Below, in pieces: positions 5,153 through 24,246 of a stretch of 25,153 bases of DNA (positions within the stretch are counted from its first letter, which is position 1; the number at the start of each line of letters is the position of its first letter). The stretch is from a virus. The stretch spans positions 1-25,153 of the IMG/VR virus record IMGVR_UViG_3300010391_000125; one strand, given 5' to 3'. The notes beneath the pieces were generated by a model that did not search any database, was not told the DNA's origin, and was given only the letters and a program-made list of their open reading frames with translations. The translations under genes were made by a program, and so were the position numbers.

Positions 5153-5598
5153 TTACCCTTCAAACTCCGTAGATGGCTGACTCTTATTCGTAGTGCCTGG
5201 GTAGTCATCCATACCCTGGAAGAAGTCGCCCTTTCTGATGTTGGCATTCTGCAGCATTGCGTCCGTCTCACTCTGGAAGATTCCTCCAGCAGATGGCAGC
5301 ATGTGTGCTGCTCCACGCGCACGCAGGCGATCTACCAGCTTCTTTAGTTCGTCTACCCTCTTTGCTCTCAGCCGAGTCTCTCCAACCTTCTGGTCCTCGA
5401 AGTAGCCAGCCTCCAGCCTCATGTAGAGTGCTTCAGCAGATGCTGCGGCTGCCCACCAGCGGTTTGGCTCTTCCTCCAAGAAGACATCGATCTCCTCGTC
5501 TTCGAGCTTGTGCGTAGACTCGTTTGCGTCTCGATGTACAAACGAACTCTGTCACGGGCATTTGGTAGCCCTTCATCTGCTAGATAAGAGAACGACAT
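5153..5598 (-). CDS. Head-tail adaptor protein, reading frame interrupted
   Basis: The gene starts at the ATG at 5598 (MSFSYLADEGLPNARDRVRLYI) and continues, in the -1 frame, as DANESTHKLEDEEIDVFLEEE, then NRWWAAAASAEALYMRLEA. Together these form the usual head-tail adaptor pattern 'xxRVRxxIGD(T/A)xxxxxxLxDEEIxxFLxxE', followed by a long helix. The length of 446 bases is one short of a multiple of three. Adding one base near 5531 (reading ATC-GGA-GAC) restores one 148-residue protein with LYIGDANEST. Only the 108-residue C-terminal part (from a codon at 5479) would be found by a simple ORF scan. Either the base is a sequencing error, or the gene is broken, or recoding occurs. The adaptor sits below the portal. 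Confidence 0.75.
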
Positions 5599-5602
5599 TT
5601 TT

Positions 5603-5827
5603 TTACTCGGACTTCTTTTCGAATCCTGCTGCTGTACACCGTTGTTCTAGCTGTGCCTTATCCTGACTTGACAGGATGTTCACTAGTGACGCATCTATCT
5701 GGTTGTGCGCTCGAATCCGTCCGTAAACGTGATAGGCACCCAAACCAACTGCTAGAATTACCATCAAGAAAACTACGTCGAAAACTCTTGCCTTTATGTC
5801 TTTCACCACTGTTACTGTTCCTTTCAT
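5603..5827 (-). CDS. Small single-span membrane protein
   Basis: This protein has about 74 residues from the ATG at 5827 (MKGTVTVVKDIKARVF). A GTG about 15 bases later with AAAGGA upstream is an equally plausible start. One hydrophobic segment, VVFLMVILAVGLGAYHVYG, is preceded by a Lys/Arg-containing stretch (KDIKAR). It is followed by a soluble tail, DKAQLEQRCTAAGFEKKSE, probably cytoplasmic or periplasmic depending on topology. The next gene, the adaptor, begins only a few bases downstream. The family is unrecognised. Holin or spanin roles cannot be argued from one segment, and it may belong to the inserted block of exported proteins just upstream. Confidence 0.6.
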   Translation of the reverse strand: MKGTVTVVKDIKARVFDVVFLMVILAVGLGAYHVYGRIRAHNQIDASLVNILSSQDKAQLEQRCTAAGFEKKSE

Positions 5828-5866
5828 CTGCAATTCAGTTAAGGATGTTACACTAACTACGGGGTT

Positions 5867-6175
5867 TTACTTTCCCCGCAAAATCCGAGTGATCTCCGCG
5901 CTCGTGAACCCCAGGACGGTCAGCTTCGACGCGAGGGAGGTCATCACCGTAACCCGATCCGAGTCCCTGGTTGGCTCCGTCTTTGGCACGTGCGCGGTCA
6001 CCACGGCACGGAGCGCTGTTACCTCGCCGCCCGATGCGCCGTCCGGGATCTGAAGGTCCAGGCCCGTGCTGTCGCGACCGATCGGCTCGACGGTTCCGAC
6101 CCACTTCGGAAACGCTTCGAGGATCTCGTCGATGAGCTGCTCCACCTTGAAGGTACCGGTCAATCTAATGTTCAT
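5867..6175 (-). CDS. Hypothetical protein in the GC-rich block
   Basis: This 102-residue protein starts at the ATG at 6175 with GGAGGGTTTGAG immediately upstream. It has no signal peptide or membrane segment. A predicted helix (KVEQLIDEILEAFPKWVG) is followed by mixed beta segments (DLQIPDGASGG, TALRAVVTAH) and a C-terminal helix pair (TSLASKLTVLGFTSAEI, then RILRGK). Codon choice is GC-rich at third positions, as in the two genes upstream and unlike the genes to its left. It is the last gene of the 5.87-8.6 kb GC-rich stretch and may have arrived with it. I do not recognise a family. Confidence 0.68.
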   Translation of the reverse strand: MNIRLTGTFKVEQLIDEILEAFPKWVGTVEPIGRDSTGLDLQIPDGASGGEVTALRAVVTAHVPKTEPTRDSDRVTVMTSLASKLTVLGFTSAEITRILRGK

Positions 6176-6190
6176 CTCAAACCCTCCAAC

Positions 6191-7132
6191 TTAGAACTGG
6201 ATCTTGACAACCGGGCTGTTGGCGCTCACCGCCGTCAGCGTCCCGGTGGTCGCCGGAAGAACTCCAGCGGTCGCGGCGTTCGCGGCGGTCCCGCTCTGCA
6301 CCACCGTCGCGTTGAACACGTCGTACCAGGTATCGATGACGGCGTCCTGCGTCAGAATCGCCACCGTGGCGGAGCTAGATGTGTAGGCCACGAGGAAGAA
6401 GCCCGGCCCGAGCGTGACGTTCACGTCGACGTTCTTCACCCCCGTGCTCGCGCAGGATTGGCCGCTTCCGTCCACCAGGAGCGTCGTCCCGGCCGCGTTG
6501 TAGATCCCGACGCCGCACGTCGACCCACCGACCGCTGTCTCCACGTTGAAGACGATTCGGTCAACTGTTGCGCTGTAGGGCAGGTAATACCGGATGACCC
6601 GAACCTGGTTAGCGGAGGCGATGACGGTGTTGCCCTCCTCGCCTGCTGGCATCGAGGTCGGGAACATGTAGTAGCCTGGGTTGGCCGCGGTGCCTCCAGA
6701 CGCCGCCTCCGGCTGCCAGGTCGAGGTCCCGGAGTCGAACGTCAGGACAAATCCGTCGCTTGGAGCCGGAGAAGAGAAGTTGACGTTGGCGTTCGGCAGC
6801 GTGACTGTCCGGTCCGCCGTTGGGTCCGTCAGCGTCACCGAGGTCTCGAAGGCGTTCGCCGTCGTTCCCTCGAAGTTGAGGGCGTTGGACACGGCCCAGA
6901 TAGAGTTCGCCGCGTCAAGGGCGTTCGTGCTCAGCGTCGAGAACAGCAGCGTCCCGGTGTTGCTCGGGAAGCTGAAGCTGTTGCCGTTCTGGTCATAGAT
7001 GACCAGGTTCCCGCCGTCGGGCGCACGAATCCCCTGCCCCATGGCAAAGATCGCGGCGAACACGAGCCCGATCACTATGGGCACCACCACATGTGCGCGC
7101 CCTGCCATATCGAACGAAAATCGGTTTCTCAT
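6191..7132 (-). CDS. Exported or membrane-anchored virion-type protein with DPTADRT repeat and C-terminal beta domain
   Basis: This protein has 313 residues from the ATG at 7132, placed by GGAGG nine bases upstream. The start overlaps the previous stop as TAATG. Residues about 10-33 (RAHVVVPIVIGLVFAAIF) form a signal or anchor segment. Next come a Gly/Asn-rich beta region and one copy of the repeat LNFEGTTANAFETSVTLTD, then PTADRTVTLPNANVNF. The C-terminal about 155 residues (from PGYYMFPTSM) are a beta-rich domain with RYYLPYSATVDRI and an ending PVVKIQF. It is clearly related to the 203-residue protein encoded at 23.6-24.2 kb. The repeat is familiar from fibre-like proteins of uncultured phages (from memory). 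I infer a fibre or surface protein; an export signal is unusual for a virion component. Confidence 0.78.
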   Translation of the reverse strand: MRNRFSFDMAGRAHVVVPIVIGLVFAAIFAMGQGIRAPDGGNLVIYDQNGNSFSFPSNTGTLLFSTLSTNALDAANSIWAVSNALNFEGTTANAFETSVTLTDPTADRTVTLPNANVNFSSPAPSDGFVLTFDSGTSTWQPEAASGGTAANPGYYMFPTSMPAGEEGNTVIASANQVRVIRYYLPYSATVDRIVFNVETAVGGSTCGVGIYNAAGTTLLVDGSGQSCASTGVKNVDVNVTLGPGFFLVAYTSSSATVAILTQDAVIDTWYDVFNATVVQSGTAANAATAGVLPATTGTLTAVSANSPVVKIQF

Positions 7133-8769
7133 TATGGGCATCCTCCGTCGACTACCAGTACAGCGATGTTAACTTCGGCACCGGTCGACAACCGGGACAC
7201 CAGCACGCAGTCCGCGGCGGCGGCACCGACCCGGTCCGTGCTCTCGTCCACGTAGATGCGCGCCCTGTTGGCCGCCGGATTGGCCGCGGGCGCTGCCAAG
7301 GCCGGGTAGTCGAGCGTTCCGAGATCCAGCACGATGGTCGACGAGTTGATGTTCAACTCGCCAGTCGTGTTGGCGATGTCGGTTGTGACGTCCCCGCCGA
7401 AGACCAGTCCGCGGTCCCAGCCGCCGTCAATTCGCAAAGCGTCCTCCTGGGTATCGACGTCCGGGCTTATATCTGTGATGTAGATCCCCCGAATGCTCCC
7501 GCCAGTGTGGTCCGCACCGGAGCCGACGTCGACCTCGATGCCGTCGTAGCTCCCGGTACCGCTCAGCCCAGACGCAGGCGCTTGCGGATCGATGAGTAAC
7601 GACTTGACGTTGTTGCCCCCTGTAGCGCCTCCCTGGTTAAAGTCGCCCCGGAGGCGAAACAGCGCCCCGCTGGTAGGGTCATCCGCTATTTCGAAGATCG
7701 TTGCGAACGAAGCGTCAAAGGCGAACATGAAGTTGTTGTCCGGGATGATAAACGAGATCGAGGCCGTGGACTGAATCTCCACATCGTCGTTGAACAGCAG
7801 TTGGCTCGAACCTCCGTCCGCTTGGAACACCATGGTCTTGTCGAGCGTTGCCCCGAAGGCCATCGTGAGCGAGTTCGTCAAGCCGCTGATTGCCGTACCA
7901 GAGGAGTACCTGACCCCAGTGTCCCACCCGGTGCCGATGTTGATCGCGTTCTCTGTGGCATCCGCGTCGCCCGTGATGGAGTCGACCAGTATTCCGTTCA
8001 GCGTATTTCCTGCTCCGGTGTGGTTCGCGTTCGTCGGATCCAAGTTTAGGAAGTTCACCGTATCGGAGCCGTTCATGGCGTTCAGTACGGAGATGAACTG
8101 AACCAGGGATCCGCTCGTGCTCGCATCCGGCGCATCAAAGAAGGCGAACTGGCCTTCGGTGGGCGCGTCGAAGTTCGCGTATATCTCGAAGCGCTCATCG
8201 TTGACGACTAAGGCCGTCTCGATCGCGTCGGCGGTGGAACCCTCAAAGATGATTATAGAAAGTGTCCCAGACTGTCCTGGGCTGACGGCCCCTGCCACGC
8301 CGTCCACGTCTATCGTCCCGCTGAAAGTGTTCATTCCGGTCCAGGAGTTGGTCGTTGTCAAAAGCGGGAGGGTCCCGGTAGCGTTGGGGAACGTGATGGT
8401 CCGGTCCGCCGTCGGGTCAGTTACCATCAGGAACGTCTCGAAGGCGTCCGCCGCAGCCCCCTCGTAGATGATCTGGCCCGTGTCGCCGTCGATGCAGATC
8501 GAGTTCGCGTCGCCCTCGGCCCCACCGAAGCAAACATCCACACCCGCGGCCGTTCGGTTGAAGACGTTCAGGCCGGTCCAGGTGTTATCGCTCGTCATAA
8601 TCGTCGACGCAGAGCACGTGAAGTTATCGAACTCGTCGAAGCAGTTCTCTAGCGCTTGAATTGCCTTGGTAGAGAATCCACCACCTTGAGTGCTGCTCTG
8701 TGTAGCTGCGAGAGTTCCGACAGCTAGGATGCCAAGGAACGTACCGAGGATACGCCAGATACGATTCAT
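7132..8769 (-). CDS. Large exported, repeat-containing beta protein (fibre-like)
   Basis: This 545-residue protein has its ATG (8767-8769) overlapping the upstream stop as TAATG. Residues 1-24 (MNRIWRILGTFLGILAVGTL, then AATQ) look like a Sec signal peptide. The rest is Ser/Thr/Asp/Gly-rich with few Lys. It contains repeated elements: NTWTGLNVF and NSWTGMNTFSG; YEGAAADAFETFLMVTD followed by PTADRTITFPNATGT, and FEGSTADAIETALVVND. C-terminal segments such as GSYDGIEVDVGSGADHTGG and GIYITDISPDVDTQEDAL suggest a stacked beta-helix or fibre shaft. GC content rises sharply after the first about 55 codons, as if a new body had been joined to a local signal peptide. No enzymatic motif is visible. 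Confidence 0.8.
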   Translation of the reverse strand: MNRIWRILGTFLGILAVGTLAATQSSTQGGGFSTKAIQALENCFDEFDNFTCSASTIMTSDNTWTGLNVFNRTAAGVDVCFGGAEGDANSICIDGDTGQIIYEGAAADAFETFLMVTDPTADRTITFPNATGTLPLLTTTNSWTGMNTFSGTIDVDGVAGAVSPGQSGTLSIIIFEGSTADAIETALVVNDERFEIYANFDAPTEGQFAFFDAPDASTSGSLVQFISVLNAMNGSDTVNFLNLDPTNANHTGAGNTLNGILVDSITGDADATENAINIGTGWDTGVRYSSGTAISGLTNSLTMAFGATLDKTMVFQADGGSSQLLFNDDVEIQSTASISFIIPDNNFMFAFDASFATIFEIADDPTSGALFRLRGDFNQGGATGGNNVKSLLIDPQAPASGLSGTGSYDGIEVDVGSGADHTGGSIRGIYITDISPDVDTQEDALRIDGGWDRGLVFGGDVTTDIANTTGELNINSSTIVLDLGTLDYPALAAPAANPAANRARIYVDESTDRVGAAAADCVLVSRLSTGAEVNIAVLVVDGGCP

Positions 8770-9254
8770 TATCTTAGTCTCCGCGATCCGTAGTAATACA
8801 GACTGACATCTTCTGGTGAACCATCACCATCGTCGACACCGTTGATGAAGATACCAACACGAATCTGGAACATTGCTTCTGGAACTACGACGTAGTCGGT
8901 GGTTGCTGCAGCGTACGCAATTGTAAGGCTGAGTGGGATAGGTGTAGTCCCATTTTTCACTCGACCATAGACTCTTACGTCGATTGTTCCAGCAGTAAGG
9001 GCCATTGCATCGATGTGAACAGCGACTCCCTTGAAGTCTTCCGTACGTGCATCAATCCAACCATCTTCCGCAGCGCTACCTGTAGAGCATGCAGCCATAC
9101 CTTCAGGCGGAGACCCAGGGAAGGTTACAGTGTCACAGAAGATCTCTGTCAAGGAATCGAGGTCGTAGGTCTCGAAGATGTCAGATCTCTTCTGAGCGCT
9201 GGCGACAGTCGCCAGACATAGAAGTAGCGCGAGTGCGAGAATTAATCTCTTCAT
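8769..9254 (-). CDS. Secreted protein with classical signal peptide, unknown function
   Basis: This 161-residue protein starts at the ATG at 9254 with AGAGGATGTGAC upstream. The N-terminus MKRLILALALLLCLATVASA is a textbook Sec signal peptide with an A-S-A cleavage site before QKRS. The mature part contains two or three cysteines (IFCDTVTF, MAACSTGS) that could form a disulphide. It then has beta-strand segments (VAVHIDAMALTAGTIDVRVY and GRVKNG) and ends VSLYYYGSRRLR. It is the first of three consecutive genes for exported products, each overlapping the next by one base, so they form one transcriptional and translational unit. The family is unrecognised. Confidence 0.75.
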   Translation of the reverse strand: MKRLILALALLLCLATVASAQKRSDIFETYDLDSLTEIFCDTVTFPGSPPEGMAACSTGSAAEDGWIDARTEDFKGVAVHIDAMALTAGTIDVRVYGRVKNGTTPIPLSLTIAYAAATTDYVVVPEAMFQIRVGIFINGVDDGDGSPEDVSLYYYGSRRLR

Positions 9255-9334: not shown

Positions 9335-9790
9335 TTACACGAGATTGAGGTACACGACGTAGAGATCACCGCGGAACTCAACCCAGTCGGCAGAGTCGGC
9401 GTCGTACACCACGATCTCTCCACCACCAACGACATCTGGCTCGGGCACCAACCCACCAGCACCGTCTTCATCAACGAAGAGAAGTGCTCCCCTCGTCTGT
9501 CCAGTGCTCACAAGCGATCCCTTCTTCAGACCGGTGGTAGCAACGCTGACCGACGCGAGATACCCATCAGGGTCGCTCGTACGGCCAACATCGAGTGTCT
9601 TCGTGGTACCAGTGACCTCGGCCACGCGAACGTCGAGGAAGACATCAAGTACAACAGCCTTCGAAGGAAGGGTGAGTCGTGTGTTCTGCACTGCCCCGGT
9701 AGGAGCAGCGTTGATGCCAATCTTGGCAACGTGCGGGATCAGGCCATCAGCAATGCGCGCCCGACTTCTTGTTAGCTGTGAAATAGCCAT
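9335..9790 (-). CDS. Small beta-rich virion-type protein
   Basis: This 151-residue protein starts at the ATG at 9790 (MAISQLTRSRARIADGLIPH), with an AGGAGTAAAAGC stretch upstream. It is beta-rich and acidic. Alternating segments are LTLPSKAVVLDVFLDVRVAE, VGRTSDPDGYLASVSVA, RGALLFVDEDGAG and a C-terminal VEFRGDLYVVYLNLV. There are no cysteines and no signal peptide. Its place two genes after the major capsid protein, plus the beta composition, suggests a capsid-associated or decoration protein. I have no specific family match. The message appears to end at the hairpin that follows. Confidence 0.72.
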   Translation of the reverse strand: MAISQLTRSRARIADGLIPHVAKIGINAAPTGAVQNTRLTLPSKAVVLDVFLDVRVAEVTGTTKTLDVGRTSDPDGYLASVSVATTGLKKGSLVSTGQTRGALLFVDEDGAGGLVPEPDVVGGGEIVVYDADSADWVEFRGDLYVVYLNLV

Positions 9791-10202: not shown

Positions 10203-11153
10203 TTACGCTACTGCGTTCTCGATGAAGTAGCCCATGTCGCTGGCGACAACCTTGTTGTCCCATGCCTTCTCGGCTTCGACACGTTCTGCCTTCTTGAGGC
10301 GCATCGGAATACGGGTGACTCCGATTTCAGCACCGAGGCCCTGAGACACTCCGCGCCATGCGAACGTGTATCCTGCGGACGGCTGGTAGAGACCAGGCGA
10401 ACGGGACACGTACATGAGCAGAGCACTCTTGCCGTGGGTGAAGTCGTAGGCATCAGCAGCACCTTCGGCATTCGTCGCGTAGATCGCACGCGCAACCAGG
10501 ATGCGCTCCACTCCGAAGAGGGTCGCAAGAAGGTCTTCCGCAACTACGCGGAACTGCGTGTACTTGATCCGATCGACGATGTCTGGGTGGTTGCGGAGCT
10601 TACGCATTACCTGGTAGCCGAGCACAAGCGTGTTAGGCATGAACCCGGTGGTACCGAGGATGGTCTCCTTGCCCTCTTCGATGTCGTCGATGGGGTCGGA
10701 GGTTGCGTAGTCGCTCCACGGATCTGCGAGCACGACGTCCGTGTCCCACACACCCGTAGTGAAGAAGTCCGCTACCCACTGAAGCTCCTGCCGAAGCAGC
10801 ATCTTCTGAGTAACGAACTGAGTCGCATCACGGAACGGATTGAGCGGGATGTCCGAATTCGCAAGAACCTGGTTGTCCACGTCCTTGTGCATTGCGAACA
10901 CGTCGCAGTTGTAGTTGTCCTGTCCGATGTTGTAGCCGGATCCTGCCGACTCGGTAGCCGGTGCACGTCTCTCGGCTTCATCACGGAACCAATCGTTCTT
11001 GGTGTAGACGTAGTAGAGATCGCTCTTCTTGTCTACGGGAACGATAGGGAATACCTTCGAAGAAATGAAGGCATCCTGTTCCTGGATGTAAGCCACGGAG
11101 ATGTTCGTAAGAATCGCGTCTACGTGAACTTGGTTGAGTGTTGGCTGTGACAT
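10203..11153 (-). CDS. Major capsid protein (HK97-fold)
   Basis: This 316-residue protein starts at the ATG at 11153, with GGGAGGA seven bases upstream. It belongs to a widespread phage capsid family recognisable by the N-terminus VHVDAILTNISVAYIQ, KVFPIVPVDKKSDLYYVY, DEAERRAPATESAGSGY, FAMHKDVDNQVLAN, FVTQKMLLRQELQWVADF and FMPNTLVLGYQVMRKL. It forms the icosahedral shell. No N-terminal delta domain is visible, which fits the separate scaffold protein encoded upstream. The decoration protein gene lies upstream and a hairpin terminator follows, as expected for a highly expressed gene. Confidence 0.93.
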   Translation of the reverse strand: MSQPTLNQVHVDAILTNISVAYIQEQDAFISSKVFPIVPVDKKSDLYYVYTKNDWFRDEAERRAPATESAGSGYNIGQDNYNCDVFAMHKDVDNQVLANSDIPLNPFRDATQFVTQKMLLRQELQWVADFFTTGVWDTDVVLADPWSDYATSDPIDDIEEGKETILGTTGFMPNTLVLGYQVMRKLRNHPDIVDRIKYTQFRVVAEDLLATLFGVERILVARAIYATNAEGAADAYDFTHGKSALLMYVSRSPGLYQPSAGYTFAWRGVSQGLGAEIGVTRIPMRLKKAERVEAEKAWDNKVVASDMGYFIENAVA

Positions 11154-20352: not shown

Positions 20353-20619
20353 TTAGTTTCGAGGGTCTATCGTGGAGTCGCCGAGGCGCAGGTAGGCAGG
20401 TTTCGTTAGCTTGTCGAGCCGGATACTGAACAGACGCTCGTCGCAGAGGGTTCCGTCATCGTGGAAGAAGATCCGTCCGACGAGAGTCTTCCCGGTCATA
20501 TAGGAGTAACGTACTGCCTCGGTTGGAGGATTGTCGATGAAACGTGGAATGGTCTTTACTACCACCTTGTCGCAGCTGAGATTCGGACAGGTGGTTTCAC
20601 TTTTGTGGGGTCGTCGCAC
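20353..20619 (-). CDS. Hypothetical small protein
   Basis: This 88-residue protein starts at a GTG at 20619 (MRRPHKSETTCPNLSCDKVV), overlapping the end of the ParB/DUF4417 gene by 23 bases. A C-x4-C pair lies near the N-terminus. A beta-rich remainder follows: YSYMTGKTLVGRIFFHDDG and ERLFSIRLDKLTKPAYLRLG. No family is recognised. Overlap with the upstream gene suggests coupled translation. I rate it a real gene because the third-position pattern and beta alternation look coding, but the start is weak. Confidence 0.5.
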   Translation of the reverse strand: MRRPHKSETTCPNLSCDKVVVKTIPRFIDNPPTEAVRYSYMTGKTLVGRIFFHDDGTLCDERLFSIRLDKLTKPAYLRLGDSTIDPRN

Positions 20620-22126
20620 GCTTGGCTTCCTTTTCTCTTCTGCTCCGTTTGCGAATCTCTAGAAGGTGTGGATTCGATTCCTTGTGTCGCACAGCCTTCT
20701 TCCGAAGTTCAGAGCTTGTTGACAGAACGGTGATGCTGCAAGGGAGATCGAATTTCTCAACCATCTCACGTCCTTTCTTGCTCGCATAGATCAGGAGGTG
20801 CTTCGGACGGAGAATGCCGAGAGCGTCTTTCAGGTTCCTCTCGATTGCCGGAATGTGTTCATCGTCGAAGCTGGTCTGGAACTGCGTAGCGATCACTGGC
20901 GCTTCATAGGGTATGCCGAGAAGAGCATAGCGCTGTGACTTCGGCTGAAAGAACTCCAGACGTGGGATCACGTTGAGGCCAGCTTCCTGGAAGTAACGTC
21001 CGAGCCACGCTGCGCGGTAGAGAGACCAGATGTGCGTAGCGACAGGAGCGAAGTCCCATAGAGAGTAGTCGGGGACTATGATGTTCTTCACACCAGCTAC
21101 GAGGAGTTGTCCGACGCGGTAGGCCGGAGTCGCCCACCACGAATCGATGTGCTTGTCGTGCGTGAAGAAAGAGACCAGGAGATTGGGTGCGAGGTTCTTC
21201 CGGTTGTCGAGCATCGGAGGCGGAGTTGCACCGTAGTTCCAGAACCAGGTGCTCTCTTTGTCGAGAGGAGTAGAGAGACGATCTCCCCAGACCTTCAGGT
21301 TGTCGGGGAGCTTTTGAACGAGCTTGTCCGGGCGGAGATTGGGGATGCCGAGTTCATTGGCTCCAGCCTCGTGGTACCACTCTCCTGTCATCTTGTTGCC
21401 GAGGTCAACGGAGCCTACTACTTGATCGTTGAAGTCGTCCGCTTCGACGTCGAAGTACGCTTCTTCGACGAGTTGCGCTACGCCTTGGAGTTCGAACGGG
21501 AGTTGGTCGTACCACTGATCGTCCGATAGCTTGCGATCATCTCCTCCGCCATCTTCTCTTTCAGCTGCAGCAACGTCATCCACAGTACCTGTTGATCCGG
21601 TGCGATCTTCTTCATCATCTACTACATCCTCCTCTAGAATGTCAGGCTCGTAGGCGTTCTCTACTGTCTCGATCTCGCCCAGAACAGCCTGTAACTCCAC
21701 CTCCAGTTCAGCCTCAATACCGATCGGATCGAGATTGGTGGACTCGATGAGAGCTTCGAGTTCAGTCTCGTCGAATCCTCCCTCGATGACCAGGAGGTTT
21801 GAGGTGATACCGTACTCCTCTGCCTCGTCCTGAGATTTGAAGGTGACGCCGCGGATGACAGGGACTGCCCACTCGACGCCATCGAGATTGCTTACAAGCT
21901 TGATACGATCCGGTGGGTTGGCTCCATCTCGGTGGAATGCCTCTTCCAGCTGCTCCAGACGTCCATGCCCGGCCACGAGCTTCCCAGAGCCCTCATCGAT
22001 GAGGACAGGCTCGACGTAGCCATACCGCTCGAACGACTTGGAGATCATGGGGGAGTGGAGCTTGGGGTTGCGCTCCATCTTGACCAGCTTGGAGAGAGGG
22101 ATGTACTCGATGTAAAGATCAGTCAT
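20597..22126 (-). CDS. ParB-like nuclease domain fused to DUF4417
   Basis: This protein has 509 residues from the ATG at 22126 (MTDLYIEYIPLSKLVKMERN), preceded by GGAAGGTAAGCAA. An upstream ATG at 22156 adds ten residues. Residues 1-100 carry a ParB/Srx-type core: YIPLSKLVKMERNPKLHS, YGYVEPVLIDEGSGKLVAGH and GRLEQLEEA. The middle (about 165-215) is an acidic, low-complexity linker. The C-terminal part (about 290-470) matches DUF4417-type phage proteins: LLVSFFTHDKHIDSWWATPA, KNIIVPDYSLWDFAP, WLGRYFQEAGLNVIPRLEFF and LLIYASKKGREMV. The last 40 residues are Lys/Arg-rich (RKRSRREKEAKRATTPQK). ParB-fold phage proteins act in DNA binding, nicking or NTP hydrolysis. The DUF4417 function is unknown. 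It is the first gene of the minus-strand unit. Confidence 0.78.
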   Translation of the reverse strand: MTDLYIEYIPLSKLVKMERNPKLHSPMISKSFERYGYVEPVLIDEGSGKLVAGHGRLEQLEEAFHRDGANPPDRIKLVSNLDGVEWAVPVIRGVTFKSQDEAEEYGITSNLLVIEGGFDETELEALIESTNLDPIGIEAELEVELQAVLGEIETVENAYEPDILEEDVVDDEEDRTGSTGTVDDVAAAEREDGGGDDRKLSDDQWYDQLPFELQGVAQLVEEAYFDVEADDFNDQVVGSVDLGNKMTGEWYHEAGANELGIPNLRPDKLVQKLPDNLKVWGDRLSTPLDKESTWFWNYGATPPPMLDNRKNLAPNLLVSFFTHDKHIDSWWATPAYRVGQLLVAGVKNIIVPDYSLWDFAPVATHIWSLYRAAWLGRYFQEAGLNVIPRLEFFQPKSQRYALLGIPYEAPVIATQFQTSFDDEHIPAIERNLKDALGILRPKHLLIYASKKGREMVEKFDLPCSITVLSTSSELRKKAVRHKESNPHLLEIRKRSRREKEAKRATTPQK

Positions 22127-22165
22127 TTGCTTACCTTCCGAGACTGATGATACCATGAAATCCTG

Positions 22166-23612: not shown

Positions 23613-23634
23613 TTTTTTGGGTGAGGACAAACCG

Positions 23635-24246
23635 ATGGGAATTAACCGTGGAAGAGACTACACCGTAGTCGCTGGGAAGATCGTTGACAAGAGCATCCTC
23701 GGTGAGGAGGGTGCTTCTGCAGATCACCTTCCTGGAGCGTTCTACTTCATCCCTGGTGGTCCATTCGATCTAGCACCTGACGTCACGACTGGGGTCACTG
23801 GTATTGCTACCGCCACTTCTCAAGCATTGCTACGCTATTACTGGCCTTATGCAATGCGTGTACGAGCTATCTCAATGGAAGTGTTTGCAGCACAACCAGC
23901 AGCAAAGATGTCCATCGGTCTCTACGATCGCAACGGTAACCGTCTCGGTTGGAGTGGGCAGATCGATGCCTCTGCTACCGGAATCAAGACCCAGATCGAT
24001 GAAGAATTCAGCGTTCCTGCTGCAGGATTTTACTGGGTCTCTTGGATGAACACAAATGTCATGGCTACAGCGCGAGCACCTTCTGATCCAGATTACTTCT
24101 TGGTCGATCCAATCAGAAACGCTGGACGTGCACAGAAGGTGGAGAAGGGTGGCGTGTCTGCAGTTGCGATTCCACCTGAAACGATCGATCTATCGACGTA
24201 TGCAGCGATCGTGCGCAATACACCGTTCATCAAGTTCCAGAGCTAA
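23635..24246 (+). CDS. Virion-type beta protein, paralogue of the 313-residue exported protein's C-terminal domain
   Basis: This protein has 203 residues from the ATG at 23635 (MGINRGRDYTVVAGKIVDKS), with GTGAGGA upstream. A TTG further upstream in frame is less likely. Shared landmarks with the C-terminal domain of the protein at 6191-7132 are PGAFYFIP against PGYYMFP, RYYWPYAMRVRAI against RYYLPYSATVDRI, IGLYDRNGNRL against VGIYNAAGTTL, ATGIKT against STGVKN, and the ends PFIKFQS against PVVKIQF. It lacks the signal segment and the repeat. Probably a small surface or fibre-associated protein. It lies between the tRNA groups, outside the structural module and on the opposite strand. Confidence 0.75.
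   Translation: MGINRGRDYTVVAGKIVDKSILGEEGASADHLPGAFYFIPGGPFDLAPDVTTGVTGIATATSQALLRYYWPYAMRVRAISMEVFAAQPAAKMSIGLYDRNGNRLGWSGQIDASATGIKTQIDEEFSVPAAGFYWVSWMNTNVMATARAPSDPDYFLVDPIRNAGRAQKVEKGGVSAVAIPPETIDLSTYAAIVRNTPFIKFQS

Follow-up and report, generated by a model that had tools for sequence, protein, structure and literature searches.

The window, that is, the whole stretch of 25,153 bases that was analysed, is a partial IMG/VR virus record that is cut at the tape measure and does not cover the phage's own tail fibres. Its late genes run on the minus strand in the order terminase, portal, XkdF-type protease, major capsid protein (10203..11153, PHROGs family phrog_1005), p105, p151 (9335..9790), p161 (8769..9254), p545 (7132..8769) and p313 (6191..7132). 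These are followed on the same strand by p102 (5867..6175), p76 (5603..5833), a connector-type protein (5153..5479) homologous to a 148-residue protein in the relative L003, closure and tail genes, and the first part of an open frame that resembles a tape measure. The capsid gene marks the upstream edge and the connector gene the downstream edge of what is here called the slot. The coordinates and lengths given for p161, p545 and p313 in a preliminary description of this DNA were correct, all three genes lie on the minus strand, and the p161/p545 and p545/p313 junctions are both TAATG with a one-base overlap, as it had reported. AGAGG is found at Shine-Dalgarno distance before p161 and GGAGG before p313, and p313 has a second in-frame ATG at 7141, three codons upstream. 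The same description had set the operon between capsid and connector, which holds except that two further genes, p102 without a signal and p76 with one membrane segment, separate p313 from the connector. Both are absent from L003 and L008, where the fibre gene abuts the connector, and p313, p102 and p76 (5603-6175 for the latter two) look like insertions by comparison.

All three products were said to carry hydrophobic N-termini of export type, and this was borne out by maximum mean hydropathies over 12 residues of 3.25 (p161), 2.27 (p545) and 3.03 (p313). Read from the sequence, p161 starts with a Sec-type signal of 20 codons (9195..9254, residues 1-20), MKRLILALALLLCLATVASA, in which VASA precedes the glutamine of a 141-residue mature part beginning QKRSD. 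The N-terminus of p545 is MNRIWRILGTFLGILAVGTLAATQSS, while p313 opens with basic residues, followed by a hydrophobic stretch of about 19 that ends in AMG before a glutamine and is long enough for an uncleaved anchor. A crude, home-made Sec rule (basic n-region, hydrophobic h-region, small residues at -3/-1) passes p161, p545 and p313; the rule failed on two N-termini that look like signals on inspection, those of L003 p161 (net charge 0) and of the L093 fibre. No lipobox was noticed on reading the three N-termini. The p161 homologue of L003 is 71% identical overall to that of the window, the capsids being 79% identical, and identity is 9/20 in the signal and 106/141 in the mature part with hydropathy kept. 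A signal that has drifted while its hydropathy and the mature part were conserved is the pattern of an evolving signal peptide. Predicted export of the three proteins is well supported by these features, and the signal-bearing operon is more than a product of chance.

The fibre nature of p545 is supported by its assignment to phrog_38058, tail fiber, at E 2.8e-8 and by a tblastn match to a Pelagibacter phage tail fiber. A repeat had been proposed as common to p545 and p313, and the likeness between the two does exceed chance (E 1.1e-8 for 37 residues at 51% identity); the accompanying DPTADRT motif was however found in p545 behind only the first of its two FEG-type stretches, YEGAAADAFET and FEGSTADAIET. 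p313 has a single FEG/DPTADRT repeat behind its N-terminal signal or anchor, and then a C-terminal domain common to L093 and to an open frame of 209 residues at 23617..24246 (phrog_25864). This open frame has no signal, lies between two tRNA genes on the plus strand, opposite to the late block, and is 29% identical to the p313 domain (E 2.5e-9). Searches of the viral_contigs set with p545 and with the p313 C-terminal domain found nothing, and PDB sequence searches gave no convincing relative, the p545 query yielding nothing useful. Pfam had no match in p545, p313 or the fibres of L003, L008, L010, L087 and L093. For p161, p545 and p313 no defence or exclusion family was found in PADLOC or NCBIfam, and PHROGs gave only tail fiber and unknown function.

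Relatives were taken as the best 80 of 298 confirmed by a capsid-protein scan of viral contigs. Four of these best 80 of 298, namely L003, L008, its near copy L009 and L010, have capsids 79-82% identical to that of the window and a signal-bearing fibre. A capsid-protein tree of 29 sequences, a thinned selection from 60 distinct ones that was supplemented with five isolates and L093, places the window on one branch with L003, L008 and L010 at a support of 100/100. In L010 the exported fibre gene (42-1871) precedes the protease gene instead of following that for the capsid, which indicates that the gene moves within the late block; this contig ends before p161 would be expected.

The remaining 76 of the best 80 of 298 relatives have capsids 61-66% identical to that of the window, and genes behind the capsid gene are present in 72 of the 76. 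None of the 473 distinct proteins encoded there carries a convincing signal, a count that comes from related, phylogenetically non-independent sequences and in which the slot of relatives without a recognised connector was taken as a maximum of 13 genes following that for the capsid, or as far as the contig end, so that later genes may be included. The hydropathy threshold was exceeded by 3/473, namely a 70-residue hydrophobic open frame and two proteins of 225 residues that resemble each other and lack a basic start. TADAFE or PTADRT motifs, like the repeats of p545 and p313, are carried by 18/473, and as these proteins have no convincing signal the relatives make a fibre of this kind at the corresponding position, signal-less. 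The uncultured phages L011-L086 and the Arthrobacter phages Salgado and Ottawa share the capsid-connector slot with the window fibres, and many of the uncultured ones the FEGTTADAFE/DPTADRT repeats as well. Their slot proteins nevertheless lack a convincing signal and begin MAITTNG... or MAGTT.KGLRYP..., unlike the window fibres, and the repeat-bearing ones are almost without cysteine. The slot of Salgado holds two 'minor tail protein' genes and that of Ottawa encodes a 767-residue protein, all without a hydrophobic N-terminus, while no long gene of this kind occupies the slot in ValentiniPuff, KPP23 or RDJL Phi 1.

Within the signal-bearing branch, the signal and about 30 mature residues are common to p545 and the fibres of L003 (220 residues), L010 (609) and L008 (1372). 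The conserved start of p545, QSSTQGGGFSTKAIQALENCFDEFDNFTC, follows the general form Q-S-S-[TR]-Q-G-G-G ... E-x-C-F-D and leads into the fibre repeats. Behind this start, L003 has a domain unrelated to p545 with a single weak match, in an uncultured phage, and L010 has mostly different sequence with stretches of weak similarity, its end having no match in isolated phages. L008 has long repeats that are partly p545-like and related last 50 residues with two cysteines. A fixed base with exchangeable tips, as suggested by these alignments, is the usual look of receptor-binding fibres.

Cysteine content sets the two kinds of fibre apart. The mature signal-bearing proteins of the window, L003, L008 and L010 hold 28 cysteines in 3369 residues, and the number is even in all eight (2, 6, 2, 2, 4, 2, 6, 4); L009, L087 and L093 are left out of this count. 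Among the 18 signal-less fibre proteins, only 4 cysteines occur in 4372 residues (Fisher p 3e-7, for rows that are related and not phylogenetically independent). Two cysteines of p161 are invariant in the window, L003, L008 and L087. The p161 of L093 is without this conserved pair, which counts against a disulphide-bonded complex. The pattern is the look of proteins that fold in an oxidising compartment. Together with the signals kept in diverged relatives and the drift of the p161 signal ahead of a conserved mature part, the even cysteine numbers upheld the earlier proposal of export.

It is conceivable that the hydrophobic N-termini anchor the proteins or tag them for assembly within the particle, or that the prohead protease cleaves them off, and that folding is cytoplasmic as for other fibres. 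The hydrophobic stretch of p313 could stay as such an anchor and, in PMC10367356, signal-peptide hits on Porphyromonas phage capsids are read by the authors as prohead-protease substrates. This explanation is nonetheless unlikely, as n, h and c regions with A-x-A or similar sites occur in unrelated N-termini, hydropathy was kept while sequence diverged, the cysteine pattern is unlike that of signal-less fibres, and convincing signals number 0/473 in the same region of relatives.

A signal-bearing fibre-type gene adjoins p161 in each of the five distinct records that have p161 (the window, L003, the L008 group, L087 and L093), and on this account p161 is regarded as a constant partner. L087, a phage with another capsid family (phrog_1328), encodes a 426-residue signal-bearing protein with an FEG-type repeat and then a p161 homologue 36% identical to that of the window. 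The contig L093 lies in a Gammaproteobacteria MAG and encodes a distant phrog_1005 capsid; its p161 and p313 homologues stand back to back directly behind the tape measure, both with export-type N-termini, the latter being 34% identical over p313 residues 153-311 (E 2e-11). The pair of p161 and exported fibre is accordingly found again, amid virion genes, in two further phage lineages. No match to p161 was found in 50,697 records of isolated phages.

This recurrence bears on the idea that the genes are a moron, lysogenic-conversion cargo merely placed between late genes. The lom and bor genes of phage lambda, which encode exported proteins near tail or late genes, offer a parallel, and p313, p102 and p76 have the inserted appearance described above. 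The translational coupling and the p161/fibre pair are on the other hand kept over the clade and found again in the two other lineages, and no integrase was seen in the open frames of the window, a partial record, or in family scans. The p161 profile matched 1/41 genomes of the order of the L093 MAG, that MAG itself only, and the p161 and p313 profiles matched 1/398 genomes of its phylum, the match being the MAG's own phage-like contig. Cargo of this sort thus seems the least probable of the explanations considered.

The structure model of p161 was weak (pLDDT 57) and that of p313 useless (pLDDT 38), and no BFVD entry was matched by Foldseek at E <= 0.001, the first rows being mixed. The best-ranked solved match of the p161 model (VIA) was the cement jelly roll of Bordetella phage BPP-1 (3j4u, Z 6.6, 108 residues, rmsd 3.6), with all structural matches at Z < 8 and 3j4u tied with C1q, the lambda tail tip, lectins and carbohydrate-binding modules. 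The mature part of p161, as modelled, looks like a jelly roll or beta sandwich, which would fit a base or decoration protein, and no structural family is claimed for it. The BPP-1 cement protein is assembled in the cytoplasm, unlike the predicted exported p161.

To our knowledge, assembly of tailed-phage particles is understood as entirely cytoplasmic. The export signals on fibre-slot genes of this uncultured phage and a small number of relatives suggest fibres that cross the host membrane before acting on the virion or the cell surface. Our main reading, to which we give a probability of roughly 0.45, is that the operon encodes an exported, disulphide-bonded fibre complex in which p161 is constant and the fibres are exchangeable, most likely docking on virions at lysis. 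Comparison of the genes supports export-type N-termini under selection, a fibre nature and slot, the late-block position, a constant partner, swapped ends and the cysteine pattern, and we infer translocation, cleavage, oxidation to disulphides, trimerisation and docking on virions. p161, p545 and p313 would be made late together with the head genes and threaded through Sec, signal peptidase would cut at least p161 and p545, and the exported proteins would fold and form disulphides outside the cytoplasm. p161 would serve as constant base or partner, with p545 and p313 as exchangeable receptor-binding fibres on a scaffold of fibre repeats, of the kind that is a cytoplasmic product in related phages. 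Once finished, the fibres would be kept in the envelope until lysis and then dock on heads or tails.

Three observations favour docking at lysis. In three lineages the genes have kept a place among those for head or tail, the slot is one that holds fibres, and in G001 (83 kb, the largest record of a relative) no recognised long fibre is listed behind the tape measure. Proteins of 376, 943, 342 and 256 residues and then small genes follow the tape measure there, with no fibre-family match among those listed. P22 tailspikes reportedly attach in vitro to finished heads, a precedent for late docking. Counted against docking is that a folded exported fibre would have to meet a cytoplasmic head before lysis. 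A more specific version is offered tentatively as a possibility, namely that the virion is built in two compartments, with head and tail cytoplasmic and the receptor-binding fibres exported by way of Sec, then oxidised beyond the membrane, where they may also be pyroglutamate-capped, and attached via p161 only at lysis.

Exported proteins need not reach virions, and the complex may instead stay on the surface of the infected cell, or be released from it, as adhesin, receptor mask or decoy, a somewhat doubtful reading but nearly as likely as docking. The signals themselves are compatible with it, as is the conserved start behind the signal with variable ends, an arrangement seen in the Bdellovibrio MAT family as far as the consulted text of PMC10769870 describes it. 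In PMC10367356, signal-peptide genes of Porphyromonas phages, of unknown function, are thought to modify the envelope. Cell display fits less well with the placement of the genes in the late block, amid head or tail genes, in each of three lineages, with the signal-less fibre genes of relatives that share slot and repeats, and with the lack of a noticed lipobox in the three N-termini; exclusion proteins would moreover be expected early or among lysogeny genes. The preliminary description had left open a choice between host-surface modification, including superinfection exclusion, and fibres inserted late through the membrane. Slot and repeats supported proteins of fibre type, and the late-block position in three lineages together with the swapped ends appears to favour receptor-binding fibres over classical superinfection exclusion.

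As described in PMC10769870, the MAT superfamily resembles the p545 group in being phage-tail-fibre-like and exported, with a signal peptide, a conserved N-terminal part and swapped C-terminal ends, the likeness being one of description. MATs are, by the same text, chromosomal predator adhesins with an N-terminal domain of about 130 residues, whereas the window genes form a phage late operon with a separate partner, p161. An S74 C-terminal peptidase is given there for 13/21 MATs and is lacking in 8/21; by Pfam it is absent from p545, p313 and the L003, L008, L010, L087 and L093 fibres. The Porphyromonas Nixviridae genes resemble the window set in their Sec signals and, for most N-termini of the set as read by eye, in glutamine as the likely first mature residue; the accessible text of PMC10367356 suggests that five such genes modify the outer membrane and reports no fibre repeats or slot for them. 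A precedent for exported virion fibres or Sec-routed tailed-phage fibres was not found in open-licence PMC text, nor was a description of tailed-phage fibre-slot genes with Sec signals and a dedicated partner. Phage JG068 was considered as a precedent and set aside, as its paper, in the part available, concerns its endolysin and lysis proteins. The proteins are not a new class, given that fibres as such are familiar and that Bdellovibrio has exported adhesins resembling fibres.

If the fibres are Sec-routed, host export and disulphide machinery would become part of phage assembly and host range, and late-gene signal peptides would be a marker for finding further such systems. If they stay on the cell, phages would carry a MAT-like adhesin system, suggesting a source of the bacterial ones.

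By eye, glutamine follows the likely cleavage site in 10/12 N-termini, with window p545 and L008 p161 reading T-Q. Glutamine at +1 is the Q-rule of Bacteroidetes in the excerpted text of PMC5837995, and five Porphyromonas phage signal-peptide genes of unknown function follow it according to the part of PMC10367356 consulted. A Bacteroidetes host was not upheld on this basis; as L093 lies in a Gammaproteobacteria MAG and the first mature residue of a G001 signal protein is glutamate, no host is inferred. Hosts of the capsid relatives include Arthrobacter, Pseudomonas, Roseobacter, Vibrio and others.

A promoter and terminator scan of the window gave chance level only. p151, a head-module protein without signal that is kept beside p161 in L003 and L008, matches phrog_20969, 'Rz-like spanin', at E 8.9e-6; it has neither a hydrophobic N-terminus nor a cysteine, and the family name looks misleading for a conserved head-module protein. 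That p161 is a paralogue of this neighbour was unsupported (hhalign probability 0.3%). Beside the packaging genes, a 519-residue protein (20597-22156, minus strand) has a DUF4417 domain, and a similar one was seen by eye in G001. The G001 signal protein mentioned above has about 484 residues, with ASA preceding EVVV... at the likely cleavage site (L115 17398-18900), and belongs to no Pfam family.
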